Shown in pieces: positions 5,263 to 51,985 of a DNA stretch of 64,000 bases; the stretch's first letter is position 1, and each line of letters begins with the position of its first letter. The notes beneath the pieces are model-generated. The model made no database searches. It was given only the letters and a program-made list of their open reading frames with translations, and was not told the origin of the DNA. The stretch spans positions 301,501-365,500 of the forward strand of contig JAOTOL010001213.1 in the NCBI GenBank assembly GCA_034440575.1. The letters run 5' to 3'. This stretch comes from Imbricaverruca yamaguchii (taxonomy: Eukaryota > Arthropoda > Thecostraca > Neoverrucidae). The translations under genes and the position numbers were made by a program.

Positions 5263-6044
5263 CTAGAGGTGTAAAACTGTGAAATTGGGTGCTGAATGTG
5301 TTGCAAGAAGTCTTTTTTTTGCGTTTTTAATGATGGTCTTACATTGTGTTCTGAGTTGTTTGTACATTGTTAGTGTTTCTGGTGTGCTGTGTCTTTCATA
5401 TCTGTGTTTTGCATGGTTCCTCGCGCGGATCGTCCGGTGGCAGTCATCACTCCACCAGGGAGCCTCGCGAGGTTTGTGTTGGCGTCGTGGTTTTGTTTGT
5501 GGTATGTGTTGGTGTGCTGTGGTGATGAGTATGTCTGCGAATTGTTCTGGTGATAGTTGGGGGCCGTGGGCTGTTTTGGACTGATAAGGATTCTGAGAAA
5601 TGGTTCCAAGAGGCTTTTTTGAGGTTCCACCGGCCAGGCTGGGGATTGGGGGGGGGGGGGGGCGGTGGTCGGGATTTGGGTGAAGGTAATGGTGATGGGT
5701 GCGTGGTCGCAAAAGTGTGGGTCTGAATCGGCGGTCCAGGATAGGGTAAGGGCTAGGCGTGATGATGAGAGGGTCACGTCTGTGGTTGTGGGGGGATGGA
5801 AACCATTTGGGACGAGGTAGGCTGGTGGTCCGGTGTTGAGTATTGTGAGGTTGTGTTTGTTCGCTAGAGTGATGAGTGTGCGTGCTCTGTTGTCAGGTGT
5901 TGTCTTGCGTGGGTTCCATAGTGTGTGGTGTGAGTTGAAATCTCCGGTTAATATTACTGGGGTGTTAATTTGGTCACGTGCTTTGTCTAGTTCCGAAAGG
6001 GTTTCTATGTTCCGTGAGGAGGATCGTATATGTTCAATCCCCAT
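5263..6044 (-). pseudogene. LINE ORF2 endonuclease domain, Jockey/I-like, frameshifted
   Basis: The reverse strand encodes part of an apurinic-type endonuclease as found at the N-terminus of Jockey/I-group ORF2 proteins. Catalytic-type signatures are TGDFNSHHTLW near residue 33 of the 5370-6044 frame, TTDVTLSS near residue 87 and CDHAPITI near residue 111. The frame breaks at the G-run at about 5650-5662; the next frame continues with the linker between endonuclease and RT (PWWSDDC, then a basic KTIIKNAKKR stretch). Coding similarity fades by about 5260, so RT and RNase H are missing. Upstream, 6060-6415 matches the 5' leader of the element at 46.7-47.05 kb, but most of ORF1 is absent here. 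The sense strand is A/C-rich, as is the RT/RNase H fragment at 25.9-27.7 kb, so the two may be one family. Not functional. Confidence 0.8.
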
Positions 6045-6059
6045 CCACCACCCACGGCG

Positions 6060-6415
6060 GCAGATGAAGAAGTCCCCGTGGGTGGTGGATCGTGGTGTTC
6101 ATGTTTGTGCTACTGTTGCTTGAATTGTGTTGTTTTGTAGTGTCGGGTACAGGGGAAAATGAGTGGCACACAATACACTGTACAGTTTTGGCGGAGGGTA
6201 AAGAAGGGGTAAAGATAGCCAGACAGGTGTAAAAATGGGGGCAGATAAACTTGAAAAGTTCACAAAGAAATCAAAAACTGTGCTTGAAGAGAGCATGGAC
6301 AGAGAGATCAGATAAAGATCATGCAGAGGGCACTAGAGGGAAGGTCGGGTGGGGGTTTGGGGGAGGCCGGGGTGGGGGAATGGCAGCACCGCCGGACTAA
6401 CCTTGTCAAGACACA
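6060..6415 (-). mobile_element. 5' leader and first ORF1 codons of the Jockey/I-like element
   Basis: This stretch matches 46680-47045 closely: shared words include GGCGGAGGGTAAAGAAGG, GGGGGCAGATAAA, CACAAAGAAATCA, AACTGTGCTTGAAG and GCAGCACCGCCGGACTAACC. In the 46-kb copy it leads into ORF1; here only the first codons of ORF1 remain (out of frame at 6060-6100) before the endonuclease begins. This copy is therefore internally deleted. Confidence 0.75.
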
Positions 6416-8394: not shown

Positions 8395-9622
8395 CTATCA
8401 ATCAGCCCTCCCTGTAATGCTGAAAACCAAGCCCTCTATTCTTATGATGATTGTCTATGCTGTTTTTAAAGATGTTCAATGCGCTGCTACTGACAATGTT
8501 TTCTGGCAGCTGGTTCCAGTGTTCTACTACCCTGTCAGTGAAGAAAGTCTGCCTTAACCTTGTTCTGCTGTGGTTAACTTTAATTTTGAATTTATGACCT
8601 CTAATTGTATCATTTCTGTTCAATTCAAACATTTCCCCAAGATATCCTCTCTCCAGACCATGGACAAATTTGAAGACCTCGATGAGATCTCCTCTCAGCC
8701 TCCTATATCTAAGTGAAAACATATTCAATTTCTTCTATCTTTCCTCATATGACAGGTTGCTTATGCTATTAACCATTTTTGTAGCCCTCTGTTGTACTCT
8801 CTCTAAAAGCCAGCAATCTTTTTCATAGCTAGGAGACCAAGCTTGGATGCAGTATTCCAAATGTGGCCTGACATATGCAAAGTAAAGCTTCCTGATGACT
8901 TCCTCACTTCTGTATGATACATTCCTATTTATTGCCCCGAGCATTCTCAGTGTCTTCTTCCTGGCTTCCTTGGTCTGTTCTGATGCCCCCAATTTTGTGT
9001 TTAGAATAACACCTAAATCCTTCTCCCGTTGAGTCACTGATAGCATTTGGCCACCCATCAAGTATGGTGCCTTCATATGATGCTTACCGACATGCATGAT
9101 TTTGCACTTATGAAAATTAAATTTCATTTGCCATTCTTTGGACCACTTCACAACTTCGTCTAAATCTTTTTGCGGCGAGATATGCTCATCTTGACCTGTT
9201 AGTGCCTTAAAGACCTTCAAATCATCCGCAAATTTCAAAACTTTACTGCTTAGGCCACTTTCATTTTTATTTACAAATATAGTGAACAGTAGTAGCCCCA
9301 GTACTGACCCATGGGGGACTCCATTAAGAACATTTTGCCATGATGACTTTGCACCATTTAGCATCACTCTTTGCTGTCTATCTGAAAGCCACACCTCTAT
9401 CCATTTTAAGATGCTACTTGCAATACCATGGGACTGAAGCTGCATCATTAACCGTTTATGGGGTACCTTGTCAAAGGCCTTACTAAAGTCAAGATATGAT
9501 ACATCAACCTGATTTCCCTGATCAAATTGTTCTGTGGCGAAGCTAAAAAAGTCCAAGATATTTGTGAGACACGATCGTCCTCTTCTAAACCCATGTTGAG
9601 TATCTTGAATAAATCTGCTATG
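8395..9622 (-). pseudogene. CR1-like LINE, 3' part of the reverse transcriptase, 5'-truncated
   Basis: The reverse strand encodes most of a CR1-group reverse transcriptase from the QHGFRRGRSCLTN block to the C-terminus. Motifs in order: YLDFSKAFDKVPHKRL, NGVPHGSVLG, KFADDLK (the catalytic FADD box), FNFHKCKIMHVG, EKDLGVIL, YVRPHLEYC and RGDLIEVFKFVHG. The protein ends with the conserved-looking LNIFKNSIDNH tail. One frame disruption lies at about 8730. The copy starts abruptly at about 9622 in a 15-bp tandem repeat, the usual 5' truncation. A diverged sister fragment lies at 17296-17500. Probably dead, although two long frames survive, suggesting moderate age. Confidence 0.92.
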
Positions 9623-10035
9623 CGTTCATGCCTTTGCGTTTACGCAGATTTGGTTAGGTGCATATGCCCTACGTACCTTTGATCTTACGTACACTTGTGC
9701 ATTTGCGCATATGCATATTTGGTCTTACGTACATTTGCGTTTGCGTTCTTTTGAACTCACGTGCACATGCACTAACGTACATTTGCACATACCTATTTTT
9801 ACGCCTACCTACATTTACGCATTCGCATTTTTGCGCTTACCGACATTTGCGCTTACGTACATTTACACTCACGTATATTAGCACATACGTACTTTTGCGC
9901 ATATGTACATTCGCCATACGTACATCTGCGCTTACAACAATTGCCATACGTAGATCTGCGTTTACGCACATCTGCTTACGTACATTTGCGTACGTACACC
10001 TACCATACGTGCATTTGCTTTAGGTGCATTTGTCC
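9622..10035 (-). repeat. Degenerate 15-bp tandem repeat, inverted block
   Basis: About 27 diverged units of TACGTACATTTGCGC, the reverse complement of the unit at 6561-6730 and 8195-8275. The CR1-like element at 8395-9622 lies between oppositely oriented blocks of the same repeat. Confidence 0.8.
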
Positions 10036-18597: not shown

Positions 18598-19074
18598 TTA
18601 AAAATGGCATAGTTGAGCATATCTTCTTTCAAATGCATGCAAATATCCTAATTATCCTACAACTTTTAGTTGTAGGATGGCTGGCGCACATAATATACAT
18701 TACTTTCGTGCATGTGTTAGCATGAGATGCAGTCATGATGGTGAGTTGGCTTAATAAAGGTTCGCCCTGATCTTGTTCTATCGATCTCGTGTTTACATCG
18801 AATGAATACCGTTTGACGTTGCTTGAGGCAGCGGCAGGGGAGGAGGATAGCGCACATTCTATCGTTGGTAATTATATGCCACAGCCGGTACCAGAATACA
18901 TTGGCATATGCATGTGAATATTTGTAAATTAATGAAATGCCGAACACATATTTCATGTTCAGCGCTGCCGAAGCACAGGTGCCATGTGAAATATAGCGGC
19001 GATCTGGCGGTGATATCCATATGTATATTTGACTAACAGGTGCCGCTTGGTACCACGTGGTCTGGTTTCGACAG

Positions 19075-19106
19075 TATAAAAGCCGACCTATTGCTATGCA
19101 GTTCAG
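19075..19106 (+). promoter_or_regulatory. TATA box and initiator of the BRICHOS-peptide gene
   Basis: TATAAAAG at 19075-19082 is followed 30 bases later by TTCAGG (19102-19107), a good initiator context with the likely start A at 19105. That gives a 5' UTR of about 58 bases ending CCAACC before the ATG. A CACGTG E-box is at 19053-19058. Function is inferred from sequence and spacing. Confidence 0.75.
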
Positions 19107-19162
19107 GCAGCACCGTCAGCCATAGCTCTCAGTGCACACACCTCCACACCCGGCCACCAACC

Positions 19163-19228
19163 ATGATCGGTGCTCTGGTGCTCGTCACTGCGCTGAGTCA
19201 GCTCAGCGTGCACGCCGCCCAGCCAGAG
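19163..19228 (+). CDS. BRICHOS antimicrobial-peptide precursor, exon 1 (signal peptide)
   Basis: ATG at 19163 in the context CCAACCATGA opens 22 codons, MIGALVLVTALSQLSVHA then AQPE. This is a classic secretory signal peptide: short N-region, hydrophobic LVLVTAL core and a V-H-A cleavage motif, so the product should enter the secretory pathway. The frame meets a strong splice donor, GAG|GTGAGC at 19226-19234, in phase 0. A TATA box and initiator lie at the right distance upstream. The reading frame continues past the donor into the 8-bp microsatellite, but that part is intronic. The next coding exon proposed is 21533-21997, also phase 0. An additional small exon between them cannot be excluded because polychaete precursors often have a longer linker after the signal peptide. 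Confidence 0.8.
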
Positions 19229-19264
19229 GTGAGCCAACGTGCTGATATGGAGAAATATTCTGTA

Positions 19265-19775
19265 CTCCATCTGTCCATCTGTCCATCTGTCCATCTGTCC
19301 ATCTGTCCATCTGTCCATCTGTCCATCTGTCCATCTGTCCATCTGTCCATCTGTCCATCTGTCCATCTGTCCATCTGTCCATCTGTCCATCTGTCCATCT
19401 GTCCATCTGTCCATCTGTCCATCTGTCCATCTGTCCATCTGTCCATCTGTCCATCTGTCATCTGTCATCTGTCCTTCTGTCCATCTCTCCATCTGTCCAT
19501 CTGTCTATCTGTCCATCTGTCTGTCCATCTGTCCATCTGTCCATCTGTCCATCTGTCCATCTGTCCATCTGTCCATCTGTCCATCTGTCCATCTGTCCAT
19601 CTGTCCATCTGTCCATCTGTCCATCTGTCCATCTGTCCATCTGTCCATCTGTCCATCTGTCCATCTGTCCATCTGTCCATCTGTCCATCTGTCCATCTGT
19701 CCATCTGTCCATCTGTCCATCTGTCCATCTGTCCATCTGTCCATCTGTCCATCTGTCCATCTGTCCATCTGTTCA
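19265..19775 (+). repeat. 8-bp microsatellite (CCATCTGT)n in the intron
   Basis: About 62 nearly perfect 8-bp units with a few shortened ones around 19455-19525. It lies just after the exon-1 donor. Each unit contains CATCTG, an E-box (CANNTG). Long open frames on both strands (SVHLSICP / MDRWTDGQ) are artefacts. Confidence 0.97.
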
Positions 19776-20379
19776 TCTGGCCATCTGTATATCCCTGCGA
19801 AAATATGGCGTAGAAAATGCATTGCATTGTATGCTGTGCAAGACGGCAAATTGACCTCTACCACCTCAGATGACCCCACTTGGCCCGAGGCAGTGAGGGG
19901 TTTACATGGACAACGAGGTATGCACTATGTGTATTCATCCACAACTGATATTATATTCATCACTAATGCCCGGTATGCTTTTTAAAAAGACTTCCTAAAG
20001 ATACTCCAAATCGATTTACTCCAGATGACCCGTCGCCTTCCCGGTGACCCCCAGTCAACAACAATACAAATCGATTAAAGTTATTGGGCTGTCGGATGCG
20101 TTTCAATCGTGCGCCGTGGAGCCACCGTCAGGTAAACGTCGGGGTGGTGTGGTCAGAGTTCGGCCAGCTCAGGTCTCTGACCTGACCTCAAAGAAAACTC
20201 CGAGAAATGCGTTTTGGAGACACTTTCCAATTGCGCCCACGCAGATTGTTCCATCTCAATAACTTTTCAGGTGGCATGATCTATCAATTTTCAAACATTG
20301 TTCAACGTGGTGCATTTTGACCTAAGCTAGGACGATGATCTTTCATAACCAGTGTTTGAAATTTTCACGTTAAACGCAA
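19776..20379. other. Intron sequence, nothing recognised
   Basis: Unique-looking sequence within the proposed intron. One exon-like segment, 19870-19917, has good splice signals but a stop in the needed phase. Confidence 0.5.
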
Positions 20380-20489
20380 CAATGTTCACGGAACGGTTAC
20401 CGCAAACTGTGCGGCGTTGCGAGACGCCGTTCTCCCACAGTCGCGGAGCAGATTAGGGGGACCCGAAAATACCCCCGAGACGGGTCAGA
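20380..20489 (+). mobile_element. TTAA-type MITE, right-end fragment inside the intron
   Basis: A CGGCG-TTGCGA-GACGCCG hairpin, GGGGGACCC / ACCCCCGAGACGGGT block and terminal TTAA (20490-20493) match the right-end layout of the 15320-16157 and 17664-18597 elements. The other end was not found. Confidence 0.5.
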
Positions 20490-21002
20490 TTAAGATTCCG
20501 GCTTAGAGGAGACTATGTTTGTTACTGGAACGCTGTTGGCGAGACCGCAAAAGTAAACCGTGGTTTCTGCTCGGCGCAACAAACTGCCAACGCTCATATT
20601 ACGCTGCGTTTTTTCTTCGCATTATTGCCCGACGTGATAAGAAAACCTTTAGATTGTTATCTAGGGTCCATGCTGTATGGTTCCCAGGTGCATTAAAAGC
20701 GCGGAATAATTTGGGTGATGGGCAAATAGATATATTCTGCTGGTGTGTACCCTAACCTCGGTCCTGTTCAGATGAATACTTTGTATTGATCCTTTTAAGG
20801 GGAAGTAGGTGCTGAATTCGGTCCCGTGAATTTCAAACCTGCCCCGTCCGATCGCTTTACTTGGTAACTTCGGTTCTTTCTTTAGAAAGGCGTACTCCGA
20901 TACACAATGTGTGCCCCAGATCAATTGAGGTCAAGCCCCGAACACCGCTTGTTGCTTCCTATTTCTTCCCCTCGCTGAGCATAGTTCTCCTGTTGTGATC
21001 CA

Positions 21003-21047
21003 GGGCCTTGCGATAGGATTGTCTGCGACGATCCTATCGCAAGGCCC
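21003..21047. other. Perfect 17-bp inverted repeat (hairpin) in the intron
   Basis: GGGCCTTGCGATAGGAT at 21003-21019 and its exact reverse complement at 21031-21047, with an 11-base loop. Flanked by GATCC/GGGATCACG words. No terminator-like T-run. Could be a recombination scar or the core of a small foldback element. Confidence 0.8.
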
Positions 21048-21532
21048 ATAATCATGGCGGGATCACGCAGGGCCCGGGATCACGAAGGGTTACTCTCAAC
21101 GAATTGCACATAATCACAAGACGGATGGTAGTTCGGGTGTGTGATAAGTCTCAAAGATAGGTAGCGAAGAGGACCTTCTCGTACTTGTAAACACCAATAT
21201 ATACAACTGGGCTTAGTTTCTTGAGGAAGGACACAGCCCCTTAGAATTCAGCCCTGAACCCTGGGTCAGTCAGCCACTCCTCATAGTCTTCAAGTGTACT
21301 CAGGTTTCCAATAAGGTCACCCAGTCACTGCAAAAATTCGAGGCCTCGTGCTTTCCATGCAGTGTTATGCAGCATCGAGCACAACAGACCCAGCAGCTAG
21401 GGAAATCAACGTTACTGAAAAGGTCCTGCGCCCTGAGAATATACGGACTCCGCCCAATGGGAACATGAAAATCCGCAGCGCCAGCATGTGCTTTCGGTAA
21501 GTTTCCTAAGGGACATGTCTAAATGCCCGCAG

Positions 21533-21997
21533 GTGCTGACGACGATTGGAGATTCCAATGGCAACATCATCGGGGAGGAGGTAATCCTGGACAAGGACAA
21601 CGAGGTCACCGTGCGGCGCAACTACCTGACCGAAACCATCCGGGACTACAAGACAGGGTTTGAGGCAATGCGGGGAAAGGGTCTCAAGGATGTTTGTGTC
21701 ATCAAGGAAATAGCAAAGGGCAAATCGGCTCAGGATGCGGAGGAGGCCGACACCAACAAAGAAGCCGGTAAACTACAGAACATCGAATGGAAAACTGCCC
21801 AAGCGGAACCGGCAGAAGACGACCTTGACAAGGCCGGCGCCAAGGTCAAAGGCTTTTGTGGTGAACTGCCTGCTTTCAAGCTGACTAGTGTTACCAGAGG
21901 TCGCAAAAGGGGATTTTGGGGTAAACTTTGGGGTGGAGTGAAAAGCGCACTAGTGGCCAACGCGGGCACAATTTTGATTGGGGCGGTTGGCCGCTAA
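21533..21997 (+). CDS. BRICHOS antimicrobial-peptide precursor, exon 2 (BRICHOS domain and mature peptide)
   Basis: Joined to exon 1 this gives a 176-residue secreted precursor. Acceptor CCCGCAG ends at 21532 and the exon begins GTG CTG in phase 0. Residues 27-139 read as a BRICHOS domain: beta-strand-like GDSNGNIIGEEVIL, the conserved Asp (D60 in RDYKTG), first Cys (C77 in DVCVIKEI) and last Cys (C131 in GFCGELPAFKL). A basic stretch RGRKR (144-148) is a likely proprotein-convertase site. It releases residues 149-174 (21911-21988), starting GFWGKLWGGVK and ending IGAV, then Gly-Arg-stop, a standard C-terminal amidation signal. The peptide has no cysteine, two lysines, two tryptophans and an amphipathic-helix look. 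BRICHOS is known to chaperone hydrophobic C-terminal peptides in polychaete antimicrobial precursors. The GFWxxxW start resembles nicomicins as I recall them. Activity is inferred. A possible AATAAA lies at 22327. Confidence 0.85.
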   Translation: MLTTIGDSNGNIIGEEVILDKDNEVTVRRNYLTETIRDYKTGFEAMRGKGLKDVCVIKEIAKGKSAQDAEEADTNKEAGKLQNIEWKTAQAEPAEDDLDKAGAKVKGFCGELPAFKLTSVTRGRKRGFWGKLWGGVKSALVANAGTILIGAVGR

Positions 21998-22195: not shown

Positions 22196-22395
22196 TTGGT
22201 GTTACTGTTTTGACTTTGCACTGTTCGACGTATCGACGTATCGACGTATCGACGTATCGACGTGTGCAACGCTTGATAAATTACTATCCACGTATCGACA
22301 AGTGAATTTCGAATATCGATATTAGAAATAAATATATAACTAAATTGCTATCGAAATATTGATGTCGAATTATCGACGTATCGATAAGTGCAACT
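22196..22395. repeat. CGTATCGA-type short tandem repeat
   Basis: Perfect CGTATCGA units at about 22227-22262, followed by degenerate ATCGA words to about 22395. The unit is nearly self-complementary. A (TC)n run lies at 22078-22092. Confidence 0.75.
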
Positions 22396-25799: not shown

Positions 25800-27730
25800 T
25801 GAATATATATTTTTCTCTTTTTCTGTTTTCTTTTGTAACGTGTCTTTTCTCTCTTTTTCCCATTTTCCTGGTTTTGTTCATTTTCTCTTTCGTTTTTTTC
25901 ACATATCTTTTCTCTTTTTTTATTTTTCCTTTTTTCACAATTCTTCCATAATGCGTGTAGTTTTGAGAAAGTGGAAGAGGTGTTCGTGTAATGCTGGATG
26001 GTCGTCGTTGAGGAGCGTGGTGAGGTTCAGTGGGATGTTGTTCGTGGTGCAATAGTTTGTGATATGTTGTCTTTGGTTGTTGTATTTGGTGCAGTATATG
26101 AGCAAGTGTTTGACTGTGAGTGTGTGGTGGCAGGTAGTGTATTGTGGTCGTGGTTGATTGAGTAGGAGGTATGAGTGTGTGAGTGCAGTGTGTCCTATGC
26201 GTAGTCGTGTTAGTGTCCGTTCTCTTAGTCTGGTGTTTTGGTTGATGGAGTGCCAGTGTTCGTGTTTGAAGTGTATTTCGTGTAGCTGTGTTGTTACTGT
26301 GTCCCATGTTTGTTGTATGTGTGTGTTGATGGCCTGTCGTATTGTGCGGTAGTAGTCGGATTGTGAATAGGGGCATTGTGTGGTTTGTTGGAGTGTTGTG
26401 GCTATGTTTGCTTCTGTGTCTGCGTGCTCGTTGCCGTGTATGTTTGTGTGACTTGGGATCCAGAGAAGTGTTGGCCGTTGTAGTATGGTGAGCTGTTTGT
26501 GGATGCGCAGTATTTTGGGTATGAGGGGGTGTTTGTATTTGGTGTGGGGTGCTATGCTCTGTAGTGCTGATTTTGCGTCTGTGGCTATGATGTCGTGTTC
26601 AATTTTGGGGTTGTAAATGGTGCAGTATGCCGAGAAGATTGCGAATAATTCTGCTGTGTATGTGGATGCTGTGTTGTGCAGACGGGCGCGTAGGATGACC
26701 CGCGGCGGCGCTGCGTTGGTGTACAGCACCGCCGCTGCGCCCGTCTGCTGTGTATGTGATTTGGAGCCGTCTGTATATATGATGTTGTAGTTGGCGTGCT
26801 GTGCTGTGAATTGTAGGAATAGTTGTATTTCTGCGTGTGTGTATGTGCCTTTTGGCTTGTCAATGAGGAAGTGTGTGTTGGGTGTCGGCTGTTTCCACCA
26901 TGCGATGGGTTGTGGGTGTGGTGTTGTCGTTGGGAGTGTTATGTCTAGTGTGTTAGCGTGTCGGTGTATGCGGCATCCTATTGTGGTTCGTAGTCGTGTG
27001 GAGTTGATGAATTGGTGTCTGCGTGCTGTGCGGAGTTTTGGTGCCTGTGTGCATGGGTGTTGTTTCGTGAGTTGTGTTTTGTAGTGGTATCTAAGTAGTG
27101 CTTCTGTACGTCTGTGCTGTAATTCTGTGATGTGGTTGTATATGTGAAGAGAGTGAGAAGGTGAGGTGGTGAAGGCTATTTGAAGAGATCGTCGTTGAAT
27201 AGAATCTAGAATTTTGAGGTTTGATTTAGTTGCGTTTTCAAAGAGTGGGGATCCGTATTCCAGAATTGGCCGAATGAGTGATTTGTAAAGGGTCAGAAGT
27301 GTGTTTCGGTCGGATCCCCAGTGTGTGCCAGAAAGTGCTCGTAGTACGTTGATTCTTTTTGAGGCGCGTTTTTGTAAGTTTAGGAAGTGTGGCCGAAAAG
27401 TTAGTTGTTTGTCTAATGTGATACCGATAAATCTTGTTGTGGTGACAAAGGGAATGGGTGAATTGTTTATTTCTAGGGGTCGTAGGTTTGTGTCTCTGTT
27501 GTAGCCGAAAATCATACATTTGGATTTGAGTGGTGCTATATGGAGGTTTAGTGTGTCGAGTTTGTTGTTGAGTTCTGTTAGTGCGTGTTGTAATACTGTT
27601 AGTGCGTGTGCTGGTGCTTTTGTTGATGTCCGTAGTACTATATCGTCGGCGTAGATTGCAATTTTGGTCGAAAAGTTGTCGGAGACGGTGGAATTTAGGG
27701 CTAAAATGAAGACTGAGGACTGAGCCTTGC
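25800..27730 (-). pseudogene. I-like LINE ORF2: RT palm, RNase H and zinc finger, 5'-truncated
   Basis: Reverse-strand element, about 1.9 kb. It enters the RT at QGSVLS (about 27720), has one frame break, then IYADDIVL with the catalytic YADD at 27642-27653. From there a single frame runs to 25935. Downstream blocks are FIGITLDKQLTF, LYKSLIRPILEYGSPLF, then an RNase H with its acidic residues in place: IYTDGSK, TYTAELFAIF, IIATDAKSAL and HGNEHADTEAN. A C-terminal CHHTLTVKHLLIYC zinc-finger-like motif follows. RNase H after the RT places it in the I/Jockey-R1-type group. After the stop comes an A-rich 3' end (T-rich on the + strand, 25800-25935). The truncated 5' end and one frameshift make it inactive, but a 526-codon frame survives, so it is not old. 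Codon usage is strikingly Thr/His/Ile-rich, reflecting an A/C-rich sense strand. Confidence 0.93.
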
Positions 27731-27784
27731 ATTAAACTGGTGGTGGGGAATTTGGTGTCTGAGGTGTGGGGCCCAATTTTTACT

Positions 27785-44539: not shown

Positions 44540-46090
44540 ACAGATAGCACATCATTCTGGACGTGCTTGGTGCACGCTGGCCTGTTACACTGGCAGCCTC
44601 ACTCGTCGGCTGCATCTCGTGTGCACAGGTTGCACACCTCGCCTGCATTCCGGCTGTGCTTGGTACACGAGATGGCTTTTTGCACTCGCAGCAGCGCTGC
44701 TTCACTTTGTTCACGTTCTGATGTCGCGCCTTTTTGTATCCGGCTCCCTGCTGAACCACCACGCACACGTGACACCGCTGGCGCGTCTGCTCGGCGGACT
44801 CAGGTGCGGCTCGGCGGACTTGGGTGCGGCTCGGCGGACTCTGGTGCGGCTCGGCGGACTCTGGTGCGGCTCGGCGGACTCTGGTGCGGCTCGGCGGACT
44901 CTGGTGCGTCGGCTGCTGATGGCGGCGTCCTCCTCTTCAGCACAATCTCCACTGCCGCCCTGGTTTGCAGACCATGCCGTCTCTCAGCCGGCTCTCGATG
45001 GCTGGCTTGATGAGCGACATGCCCAGCTCGCGCAGGAACGCTCTCCTTCCTCCGTGCTTCGTGTCTCCGAAGGGCCCGGGCTTGTCAGTTATGACCGCCC
45101 AGCTGTTCAGAGCGGCCACGTCCGGCATCATTAAAAACATGACCATGAGCCACCTCCACGTTGGTATCTTGCGCGAGTAGTGGCCGATAATCTGGTCGAT
45201 GGTGTGGACACCGCCTTTTGTTTGGCCGTAGTAAACAATCATTTCGGGCTTTCTAGGTGGTGAGTAGGTGGTGAGGTGAGGTTGCTTTCCGACGTAGGTG
45301 AGGTTGCTTTCCAACAGGTCCTCACACAGGTCGACGCCGGTGTAGTATCGGTCGGCGGTGGCGTTCAGGCCACTATTTTTCAGGTCTCTCACCAGGTACT
45401 TCACAATGTTTGATGCGCCAGTCACATGAAGCGAATGGTCTGGTTCTTCAACCTTCCAGGGATACGGCAGCATTTCCAGCATGTACCGCGATGTCGCGTC
45501 AGCCACGTCCATGATGAGAAGTCAGTACTTTGCAGGTTTGTTCGGCGTTTGTATGACTAAGCTGCATCGTCCCCTGTAGCTGCGCAGCGTCTCATCTACG
45601 GCTACGCAGTCTGACGGATTGCAATACTTCGAGAGCAGAGCGTTGAATTATTCACACTTCACGAAGGCCGGCGAACTTGCCAGGCTTCCGCCTCTCTTCC
45701 CGATCTGAGCGGGCGTCGAAGCGGAGGATTCGCAACAGATGTTTCCAGCGGTTTTGGGTCGTGGTAGCCCCGTAGAATGGTCGTGAGAACGCTCCGTAAT
45801 ACAAGTCTTGCAGCTCACAATTGCGGTCAAACTCACACCGATGGAGCAGCATTAGGCCAATGAGAGCCATCAGCTCGTGCTGTCACTGGCACATGCGTCT
45901 TCCTTGTACTGATGGCGACTCTTTCTTCCTCTTCGTTGGTGTGCTTCAAGATTTGGGATGCTGCACAGCTCTGGCAACACCCGTTGGTCCAGTTGCATCA
46001 CGCATAATGTTGGCACTGGAAGCACGGACACGGTGATTGGGTGGCTCGGTCGACCATGTCCTTCCGGTGCGCGCCTTCATCTGAGTGGTC
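44540..46090 (-). pseudogene. piggyBac transposase, DDD core and C-terminal cysteine-rich domain, decayed
   Basis: On the reverse strand the reading begins near 46090 with ARTGRTWSTEPP and SSANIMRDATGPTGVAR, then LKHTNEEEERVA, then LMALIGLMLLHRCEFDR and RWKHLLRILRFD. NALLSKYCNPSDCVAVDETL follows with RSYRGRCSL. From 45512 a 191-codon frame carries TADRYYTGVDLCEDLL, MIVYYGQTKGGVHTIDQIIG and MMPDVAALNSW. The three catalytic aspartates expected for piggyBac (in VDET, ADRYY and TIDQ) are all present. Beyond a 20-bp repeat insertion comes CCECKK, SCTKHSRNAGEVCNLC and CNRPACTKHV, the cysteine/histidine-rich C-terminal domain. At least four stops or frameshifts disrupt it (for example near 45645 and 45530). 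The acidic N-terminus is probably 47663-47995, separated by a LINE fragment. Not functional. Confidence 0.9.
44788..44908. repeat. 20-bp tandem repeat GGCTCGGCGGACTCTGGTGC
   Basis: Six units inserted between the catalytic core and the cysteine-rich domain of the piggyBac pseudogene. Confidence 0.95.
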
Positions 46091-48251: not shown

Positions 48252-51200
48252 ATGCGCCACCAGTCCCCTGCGACAAGGCAACCAGTCCCCACCAGTCCCC
48301 TGCGACAGGGCAACCAGTCCCCACCAGTCCCCTGCGACAGGGCAACCAGTCCCCACCAGTCCCCCTGCGACAGGGCAACCAGTCCCCACCAGTCCCCTGC
48401 GACAGGGTAACCAGTCCCCACCAGTCCCCTGCGACAGGGCAACCAGTCCCCACCAGTCCCCTGCGACAGGGCAACCAGTCCCCACCAGTCCCCTGCGACA
48501 GGGCAACCAGTCCCCACCAGTCCCCCTGCGACAGGGCAACCAGTCCCCACCAGTCCCCTGCGACAGGGCAACCAGTCCCCACCAGTCCCCTGCGACAGGG
48601 CAACCAGTCCCCACCAGTCCCCTGCGACAGGGTAACCAGTCCCCACCAGTCCCCTGCGACAGGGTAACCAGTCCCCCCCCCCACCAGTCCCCTGCGACAG
48701 GGCACCAGTCCCCCTGCGACAGGGCAACCAGTCCCCACCAGTCCCCTGCGACAGGGCAACCAGTCCCCACCAGTCCCCTGCGACAGGGCAACCAGTCCCC
48801 ACCAGTCCCCTGCGACAGCCCAGTCCCCTGCGACAGGGCAACCAGTCCCCACCAGTCCCCTGCGACAGGGCAACCAGTCCCCACCAGTCCCCTGCGACAG
48901 GGCAACCAGTCCCCACCAGTCCCCTGCGACAGGGCAACCAGTCCCCACCAGTCCCCTGCGACAGGGCAACCAGTCCCCACCGGTCCCCTGCGACAGGGCA
49001 ACCAGTCCCCACCAGTCCCCTGCGACAGGGCAACCCAGTCCCCACCAGTCCCCTGCGACAGGGCAACCAGTCCCCACCAGTCCCCTGCGACAGGGCAACC
49101 AGTCCCCACCAGTCCCCTGCGACAGGGCAACCAGTCCCCACCAGTCCCCTGCGACAGGGCAACCAGTCCCCCACCAGTCCCCTGCGACAGGGCAACCAGT
49201 CCCCACCAGTCCCCTGCGACAGGGCAACCAGTCCCCACCAGTCCCCTGCGACAGGGCGACAGGGCAACCAGTCCCCACCAGTCCCCAACCAGTCCCCACC
49301 AGTCCCCTGCGACAGGGCAACCAGTCCCCACCAGTCCCCTGCGACAGGGTAACCAGTCCCCACCAGTCCCCTGCGACAGGGCAACCAGTCCCCACCAGTC
49401 CCCTGCGACAGGGCAACCAGTCCCCACCAGTCCCCTGCGACAGGGTAACCAGTCCCCACCAGTCCCCTGCGACAGGGCAACCAGTCCCCACCAGTCCCCT
49501 GCGACAGGGCAACCAGTCCCCACCAGTCCCCTGCGACAGGGCAACCAGTCCCCACCAGTCCCCTGCGACAGGGCAACCAGTCCCCACCAGTCCCCTGCGA
49601 CAGGGCAACCAGTCCCCACCAGTCCCCTGCGACAGGGCAACCAGTCCCCACCAGTCCCCTGCGACAGGGTAACCAGTCCCCACCAGTCCCCTGCGACAGG
49701 GCAACCAGTCCCCACCAGTCCCCTGCGACAGGGTAACCAGTCCCCACCAGTCCCCTGCGACAGGGCAACCAGTCCCCACCAGTCCCCTGCGACAGGGTAA
49801 CCAGTCCCCACCAGTCCCCTGCGACAGGGCAACCAGTCCCCACCAGTCCCCTGCGACAGGGCAACCAGTCCCCACCAGTCCCCTGCGACAGGGCAACCAG
49901 TCCCCACCAGTCCCCTGCGACAGGGTAACCAGTCCCCACCAGTCCCCTGCGACAGGGCAACCAGTCCCCACCAGTCCCCTGCGACAGGGCAACCAGTCCC
50001 CACCAGTCCCCTGCGACAGGGCAACCAGTCCCCACCAGTCCCCTGCGACAGGGTAACCAGTCCCCACCAGTCCCCTGCGACAGGGCAACCAGTCCCCACC
50101 AGTCCCCTGCGACAGGGCAACCAGTCCCCACCAGTCCCCTGCGACAGGGTAACCAGTCCCCCACCAGTCCCCTGCGACAGGGTAACCAGTCCCCACCAGT
50201 CCCCTGCGACAGGGTAACCAGTCCCCACCAGTCCCCCTGCGACAGGGTCAACCAGTCCCCACCAGTCCCCTGCGACAGGGCAACCAGTCCCCACCAGTCC
50301 CCTGCGACAGGCAACCAGTAACCAGTCCCCACCAGTCCCCTGCGACAGGGCAACCAGTCCCCACCAGTCCCCTGCGACAGGGTAACCAGTCCCCACCAGT
50401 CCCCTGCGACAGGGCAACCAGTCCCCACCAGTCCCCTGCGACAGGGCAACCAGTCCCCACCAGTCCCCTGCGACAGGGCAACCAGTCCCCACCAGTCCCC
50501 TGCGACAGGGCAACCAGTCCCCACCAGTCCCCTGCGACAGGGCAACCAGTCCCCACCAGTCCCCTGCGACAGGGCAACCAGTCCCCACCAGTCCCCTGCG
50601 ACAGGGCAACCAGTCCCCACCAGTCCCCTGCGACAGGGCAACCAGTCCCCACCAGTCCCCTGCGACAGGGCAACCAGTCCCCACCAGTCCCCTGCGACAG
50701 GGCAACCAGTCCCCACCAGTCCCCTGCGACAGGGCAACCAGTCCCCACCAGTCCCCTGCGACAGGGCAACCAGTCCCCACCAGTCCCCTGCGACAGGGCA
50801 ACCAGTCCCCACCAGTCCCCTGCGACAGGGCAACCAGTCCCCACCAGTCCCCTGCGACAGGGCAACCAGTCCCCACCAGTCCCCTGCGACAGGGCAACCA
50901 GTCCCCACCAGTCCCCTGCGACAGGGCAACCAGTCCCCACCAGTCCCCTGCGACAGGGCAACCAGTCCCCACCAGTCCCCTGCGACAGGGCAACCAGTCC
51001 CCACCAGTCCCCTGCGACAGGGCAACCAGTCCCCACCAGTCCCCTGCGACAGGGCAACCAGTCCCCACCAGTCCCCTGCGACAGGGCAACCAGTCCCCAC
51101 CAGTCCCCTGCGACAGGGCAACCAGTCCCCACCAGTCCCCTGCGACAGGGCAACCAGTCCCCACCAGTCCCCTGCGACAGGGCAACCAGTCCCCACCAGT

Positions 51201-51985
51201 CCCCTGCGACAGGGCAACCCAGTCCCCGACAGGGCAACCAGTCCCCACCAGTCCCCTGCGACAGGGCAACCAGTCCCCACCAGTCCCCTGCGACAGGGCA
51301 ACCAGTCCCCACCAGTCCCCTGCGACAGGGCAACCAGTCCCCACCAGTCCCCTGCGACAGGGCAACCAGTCCCCACCAGTCCCCTGCGACAGGGCAACCA
51401 GTCCCCACCAGTCCCCTGCGACAGGGCAACCAGTCCCCACCAGTCCCCTGCGACAGGGAACCGCCCCCTCCCCTCGACAGGGCAACCAGTCCCCACCAGT
51501 CCCCTGCGACAGGGCAACCAGTCCCCACCAGTCCCCTGCGACAGGGCAACCAGTCCCCACCAGTCCCCTGCGACAGGGCAACCAGTCCCCACCAGTCCCC
51601 TGCGACAGGGCAACCAGTCCCCACCAGTCCCCTGCGACAGGGCAACCAGTCCCCACCAGTCCCCTGCGACAGGGCAACCAGTCCCCACCAGTCCCCTGCG
51701 ACAGGGTAACCAGTCCCCACCAGTCCCCACCAGTCCCCTGCGACAGGGTAACCAGTCCCCACCAGTCCCCTGCGACAGGGTAACCAGTCCCCACCAGTCC
51801 CCACCGGTCCCCTGCGACAGGGTAACCAGTCCCCACCAGTCCCCACCGGTCCCCTGCGACAGGGTAACCAGTCCCCACCAGTCCCCACCGGTCCCCTGCG
51901 ACAGGGTAACCAGTCCCCACCAGTCCCCTGCGACAGGGTAACCAGTCCCCACCAGTCCCCACCGGTCCCCTGCGACAGGGCAACA
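48252..51985. repeat. 32-bp satellite, about 115 copies (core CCCTGCGACAGGGCAACCAG)
   Basis: About 3.7 kb of a 32-bp unit with CAGTCCCCACCAGTCC linking the cores. The main variant is GGGTAACC for GGGCAACC, scattered in the left half and enriched again near the right end (51705-51960), where units with an extra CAGTCCCCACCGG piece appear. A few deletions (for example 50309, 51225, 51460) break the phase. The unit contains CCCTGCGACAGGG, a palindrome. It has no stop in any reverse frame, giving spurious frames of up to 1419 codons. Confidence 0.98.

Follow-up and report, generated by a model that had tools for sequence, protein, structure and literature searches.

Antimicrobial peptides released from precursors that carry a BRICHOS domain have seemed to be restricted to marine worms (PMC6780910; this and the other papers named here are cited for individual passages), and a 2025 review places such precursors under polychaetes (PMC11767717). 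The described precursors, from polychaetes in the wide sense with spoon worms included, comprise the arenicins, alvinellacin, capitellacin, nicomicins, UuBRI, HfBRI and others. BRICHOS proteins as such are widespread, insects included (PMC9627735), and no BRICHOS antimicrobial gene in an arthropod was reported in the literature searched, which consisted mostly of titles and the first parts of abstracts. Here we describe a two-exon gene at positions 19163-21997 of a window of 64,000 nucleotides (C980:301501-365500 of a genome of 767 Mb in 1430 contigs, all of which was searched), whose product follows the known precursor order of signal, linker with a BRICHOS-like domain, basic site and C-terminal peptide, and whose host is an arthropod, so that the order is kept and the recorded polychaete-only distribution is not, the latter being a distribution so far and not a mechanism.

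The nicomicins of Nicomache minor (Maldanidae) resemble this gene in signal peptide, proregion BRICHOS, dibasic site and a C-terminal peptide that is helical in its N-terminal part, and are unlike it in a 239-residue precursor, a 33-residue peptide with a disulphide loop and a polychaete host (PMC6265681), whereas the window gene encodes 176 residues and a peptide of 26, free of cysteine and ending in Gly-Arg, in an arthropod. In Heteromastus filiformis, one species likewise has many precursors with dissimilar cargo peptides (13 HfBRI precursors), including the Cys-free 28-residue helix HfBRI-28 with a charge of +7 as well as Cys-rich peptides; compared by description only, this system differs in its polychaete host and in that 5 of the 13 precursors are transmembrane, and a term search of the paper finds no mention of amidation (PMC10745061). 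Preproalvinellacin of Alvinella also belongs to a multigene BRICHOS antimicrobial family with some tandem copies, but it has 5 introns versus 1 here, and its peptide is monomorphic and under purifying selection while replacements gather in the BRICHOS and propiece (PMC5431198), the reverse of what is found in the present family. Vertebrate cathelicidins share the plan of a conserved prodomain before a variable antimicrobial C-terminus, an analogy drawn for the nicomicins (PMC6265681). The BRICHOS domain of human proSP-C (2yad) shares the fold match and the Asp/Cys/Cys pattern with the window product, but its client is N-terminal and it has no antimicrobial cargo. The cathelicidin prodomain is cathelin-like and unrelated to BRICHOS.

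A preliminary description had given the window gene a TATA promoter, a signal exon, a phase-0 junction, Asp60, Cys77 and Cys131, the basic site RGRKR, a 26-residue peptide and a Gly-Arg-stop end, and all of these lie where it placed them in the 176-amino-acid product of the joined exons (Table 1), with transcription probably starting near 19105. The candidate does not stand alone: on sequence grounds, it belongs to a multigene family of a pancrustacean arthropod. Searching the genome with exon 2 yields 11 matches, namely the window itself, five intact close copies, three distant copies and, split into two pieces on C407, a broken one; the intact ones, on C1102 (one at about 634-635 kb, one at 609 kb), C794, C1101 and C849, have 57-63% identity to the window's exon 2. 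A search with one distant copy yields 17 matches (nine full copies, one fragment and seven close loci), the nine being clustered on C677 (5), C404 (2) and C960 (2) at 95-100% identity; these counts are lower bounds, and some clusters are possibly alternative haplotypes. The anatomy recurs, since exon 2 begins at the same codon, in phase 0, after CAG or TAG in the five other intact copies, their signal exons have 22 codons and end at a GT donor, introns across all six measure 647-2304 bases, and a TATA (a variant in one copy) stands 86-89 bases upstream of the ATG in every one. Promoter and exon 1 are alignable across the five copies compared. A DNA search with window 19000-19240 finds five places, with promoter and exon 1 at C794, C1102 (634 kb) and C849 besides the window and the promoter part only at C407, and misses the copies on C1101 and C1102 (609 kb), which have diverged further. 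By itself, the 186-codon open frame proves nothing, because the window holds 168 stop-to-stop frames of at least 100 amino acids; the exon-2 frame is moreover already open from 21437, so that the acceptor could be placed elsewhere from the window sequence alone, and the pyrimidine tract 5' of it is poor, as it is in the relatives. The model is settled by the paralogues within the genome, which show the same anatomy: the gene is real, and its model, with splicing predicted, is as well proven as sequence alone permits.

Three smaller observations concern the family's surroundings. The seventh close copy (C407:50342-50777) has frameshifts and stops within its BRICHOS part, and its promoter half still aligns with that of the window. 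Upstream of the C1102 (635 kb) gene, a further 2 kb or so away, lies a second copy of window 18833-18958 with 77% identity, and the upstream homology is therefore partly repeat-derived. A simple home-made pattern finds no NF-kB-like sites within 400 bases upstream of the six copies.

Conserved Asp and two Cys residues are the rule for BRICHOS (PMC6265681, PMC9627735), and Asp38, Cys55 and Cys109 (exon-2 numbering) are invariant in 9/9 aligned members. The Pfam profile PF04089, proposed in the preliminary description as a check on the translation, matches the product at 20.5 and 20.9 bits (E 5.7e-4 and 4.4e-4; profile positions 6-90 of 91); BRICHOS is the best Pfam match, and none of 10 shuffled sequences matches. 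With a modest fold model, Foldseek places 2yad chains at ranks 1-3 of 111 (E 0.045-0.10, the first unrelated match having E 2.5), and a VIA structure search with the same model ranks two BRICHOS entries first and second. In this low-confidence model, Asp38 closes a strand, Cys55 opens a strand and Cys109 closes a helix, and BRICHOS domains are described with Asp at a strand end and Cys at a strand start and a helix end (PMC9714404); AlphaFold2 of exon 2 alone is poor (pLDDT 40.7). A PDB sequence search with exon 2 gives three unrelated matches only (E 0.69 or worse). Homologues are found neither for the product among 108 candidate proteins nor for the nine-member alignment among 4222, and 17 pattern stretches in viral contigs yield none that is confirmed; PF04089 run across the whole genome matches nothing, the window's own exon included, and is hence uninformative.

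The two parts of the precursor have evolved unequally, as judged from substitution counts, the BRICHOS part being constrained and the peptide diversifying. In the pro and BRICHOS part, the ratio of non-synonymous to synonymous substitution rates (Ka/Ks) is 0.35-0.65 in 15/15 pairs, and the reading frame is therefore constrained. In the mature part, 14 of the 15 pairs can be estimated: Ka/Ks is 0.35-0.71 in 12, many of them near synonymous saturation, 1.89 for C794 versus C1102 (635 kb), and 6.32 for the youngest pair, C1102 (635 kb) versus C849. That pair differs by 18 non-synonymous and 1 synonymous changes in 31 mature codons, without a gap, by 5 and 3 in 124 codons of the pro part, at 32/645 intron sites and at 13/299 sites in the 5' 300 bases; about 18/72 non-synonymous mature sites set against the intron sites gives a Fisher P of 2e-7. 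The other young pair, C1102 (609 kb) versus C1101, has peptide changes of 15.2 to 6.8 and is not counted as support because its tail has indels.

The predicted cleavage site is RKR in the window, with Gly at the fourth place back, RPKR in three and KR or RR in two of the five other intact close copies, and RAKR in 9/9 distant copies, and after this basic site the peptide sequences diverge greatly among copies. A Gly-Arg end, the usual signal for C-terminal amidation, closes the window peptide and those of three relatives, which makes 4/6 intact close copies; in the close copies on C1101 and C1102 (609 kb), the tail contains cysteine. Net charge before the Gly-Arg, counting Lys, Arg, Asp and Glu only, is +2 in the window and +5, +8 and +8 in the three sisters, which start with Gly-Trp and have a hydrophobic moment (muH) of 0.24-0.38. 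Out of 5000 shuffles of the first 18 residues, 93 are as amphipathic as the real peptide for C849, 423 for C794, 1238 for C1102 (635 kb) and 2330 for the window, whose weakly charged peptide is less typical than the other three. In the PDB, it matches only nicomicin-1 by sequence (E 0.67); both peptides start with GFW and have W at position 7, G at 9 and K at 11, a likeness that is possibly convergent because the family profile misses nicomicin. Single-peptide searches of the PDB gave no match for C849, four unrelated ones for C794 and one unrelated one for the cysteine-rich peptide. In the distant genes on C677, C404 and C960, the peptide after RAKR is this cysteine-rich one, starting QQQC, with last residues that differ among copies.

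We consider it probable that the window gene encodes a secreted precursor, made of signal, short linker, BRICHOS-like domain, basic site and peptide, that releases a host-defence peptide. By analogy with the described systems, the precursor would enter the secretory pathway, where the BRICHOS-like domain, folded around one disulphide, would hold the hydrophobic C-terminal peptide and prevent it from aggregating or attacking the membranes of its own cell; a furin-like convertase would cut after RKR, a carboxypeptidase and an amidating enzyme would give the Gly-Arg members an amidated end, and the released peptide would be membrane-active. Duplication with a constrained chaperone and a fast-changing cargo could then have built an arsenal of amidated helices, with cysteine-containing peptides in other members. 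The chances are about even that the whole family is such an arthropod, cathelicidin-like BRICHOS arsenal, in which a constrained chaperone and a hypervariable cargo lie on one exon under diversifying selection and the cargo ranges over amidated helices, cysteine-tailed and compact cysteine-rich peptides. Several results weigh against these readings. The window peptide has a charge of only +2 and lacks an amphipathic signal; a profile of the six peptides run against the PDB misses nicomicin and returns three unrelated matches only; the PF04089 score is under the gathering score of 25 bits, and among nine members the profile matches one at E 1 or better and the other eight not at all; a PDB search with the family profile returns annexins only (6 matches, best E 0.005); and the direct test of Ka > Ks in the youngest pair, which was picked out after the fact, reaches only P 0.048. 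The domain is BRICHOS-like, and not a member by the curated threshold. Of what the preliminary description proposed, the two-exon secreted layout, basic site and Gly-Arg-ended peptide of a BRICHOS precursor have held, with the domain itself falling short as just said, and its host-defence reading has gained from the gene family and the fast peptide change and lost from the window's own peptide.

It is unlikely, on present evidence, that a BRICHOS-type precursor carries a non-antimicrobial cargo here, such as a fast-diversifying, amidated secreted signal, pheromone, adhesive or venom-like peptide. Ends of the Gly-Arg amidation type characterise bioactive peptides generally, and the window peptide is weakly cationic without amphipathic signal, but the three Gly-Trp sisters carry +5 to +8 (C849 alone being clearly above its shuffles), and a variable cargo with a conserved pro-part in duplicated genes is a usual defence-peptide pattern. 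Such a variable cargo is stated for metazoan antimicrobial peptides (PMC5431198), and BRICHOS, in favour of the other view, has many kinds of cargo (PMC10182729). That the window copy is decaying or unexpressed also seems improbable; its intron of 2304 bases, against 647-1571 elsewhere, holds the 523-base TCCATCTG array, its peptide has a charge of +2 where the three remaining Gly-Arg peptides have +5 to +8, and a broken copy does exist on C407, but its frame, signal exon, splice sites, cleavage site and Gly-Arg end are intact and its pro-part stays at Ka/Ks 0.35-0.65 when compared with the five others. It is quite improbable that the domain has a two-cysteine propeptide fold unrelated to BRICHOS, a reading that would fit the sub-threshold Pfam match in 1/9 members, the low-confidence model and the annexin hits, because BRICHOS is best both by sequence profile and by fold and the model places Asp38, Cys55 and Cys109 as described for BRICHOS (PMC9714404).

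The polychaete setting that the preliminary description assumed does not fit the genome. The RR cuticle domain PF00379 is an arthropod hallmark, and it has 150 matches here, all above the cut-off (150 scored of 340 candidates), and none in 14 control genomes, the controls named for the COX1 search being prokaryotes with no annelid among them. The only COX1 match in the genome lies in a mitochondrial fragment inside contig C996, which carries a partial proton-pump subunit (nad2 by position), cox1, a tRNA and cox2 on one strand and rrnL, a tRNA and nad1 on the other. Rfam calls both tRNAs, whereas ARAGORN finds none in the fragment and single-strand folding yields no cloverleaf; for the tRNA between rrnL and nad1 there is a single possible anticodon arm, TAG, and for the one between cox1 and cox2 a loose scan gives three, the arm in the canonical position being TAA. 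Read by these anticodons, trnL(UUR) lies between cox1 and cox2 and trnL(CUN) between rrnL and nad1, which is the pancrustacean gene order, an arrangement regarded as a novelty that crustaceans and hexapods share (PMC3176236). The abundance of PF00379 and the mitochondrial gene order therefore make the host an arthropod, most likely a crustacean or hexapod, and an annelid host was dropped on the same two grounds. The flanks of the fragment share repeats with the family-bearing C677 and C1101 (4 matches, with 0 to the window), and repeats are also common to the window and paralogue contigs. A search for the annelid haemoglobin-linker family PF16915 found nothing, which is uninformative alone as no control matched either, and 38 reverse-transcriptase relatives, the named ones being from arachnids, a beetle and fungi at low identity, are a weak host marker. 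The fragment itself, at about 270-275 kb of C996 (L037 3963-9080), sits within a 405-kb contig with cox1 open under code 5, and either entered the nuclear genome recently or was joined there in assembly.

Helical cargo free of Cys (HfBRI-28) and Cys-rich cargo are already known, as is a single species that has many cargoes (H. filiformis). If a secreted BRICHOS-like precursor of host-defence peptides is confirmed here, what would be new is the phylum, the BRICHOS and peptide on one exon, the Gly-Arg ends (none seen in the literature passages on BRICHOS peptides) and the reversed selection pattern relative to Alvinella. An arthropod family would extend the known range of BRICHOS defence precursors to another animal phylum and, if true, would make BRICHOS-guided defence peptides either far older than annelids or arisen twice, under a selection regime whose contrast with Alvinella (fixed peptide, varying BRICHOS) can be tested in related species. 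A single chaperone serving many cargoes would be a natural experiment on BRICHOS recognition, a question in amyloid biology, and the family offers a set of new peptide scaffolds. The cysteine-rich peptide PpRcys1 of the gooseneck barnacle Pollicipes (104 amino acids, 12 Cys; BRICHOS not mentioned by term search) is a different thing.

Table 1. Features of the BRICHOS-like precursor gene, in window coordinates.
Feature	Position	Strand	Support in the family or by search
TATA box TATAAAAG	19075..19082	+	5 copies with aligned promoter; TATA or variant in 6/6 copies
Exon 1: predicted signal peptide MIGALVLVTALSQLSVHAAQPE, phase-0 donor GAG/GTGAGC	19163..19228	+	matching signal exons in five paralogues
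Intron, 2304 bases	19229..21532	+	five other copies: 647-1571 bases
Tandem array of TCCATCTG, 523-base microsatellite, within intron	19266-19788	n/a	
Exon 2 (154 residues; opens after CCGCAG, acceptor CAG/GTGCTG at 21533): linker, BRICHOS-like domain, cleavage site, peptide, stop (21995-21997)	21533..21997	+	
BRICHOS-like domain, exon-2 residues 34-115 (Asp38, Cys55, Cys109)	21632..21877	+	Pfam PF04089 20.9 bits; fold match 2yad
RGRKR basic cleavage site (predicted)	21896..21910	+	basic site recurs in paralogues
Mature peptide, 26 residues + Gly-Arg (21989-21994), predicted amidated	21911..21994	+	Gly-Arg end in 4/6 intact close copies
AATAAA, possible polyadenylation signal	22327..22332	+	among 5 paralogues only 1 has AATAAA within 600 bases past the stop

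Also within the intron, and noticed by eye, is a perfect 17-base inverted repeat (GGGCCTTGCGATAGGAT and its complement) at window 21003-21047, perhaps a small mobile element. The gene had been called the only convincing host gene in the window, a claim now partly checked by scanning 10 other frames, of which five have no Pfam match and five do (four transposon domains, and one DUF1759 under its cut-off). The transposon remains, all on the minus strand, lie at window 25935-27731, 8735-9625, 5370-6098 and 44937-45521, and their domains are a reverse transcriptase with RNase H, a second reverse transcriptase, an endonuclease and a DDE_Tnp_1_7 transposase, the last of which we take to be piggyBac-type. 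Window 48257-51960 is a 3.7-kb satellite in which a 32-base unit is repeated about 115 times; several of its frames are open on both strands.
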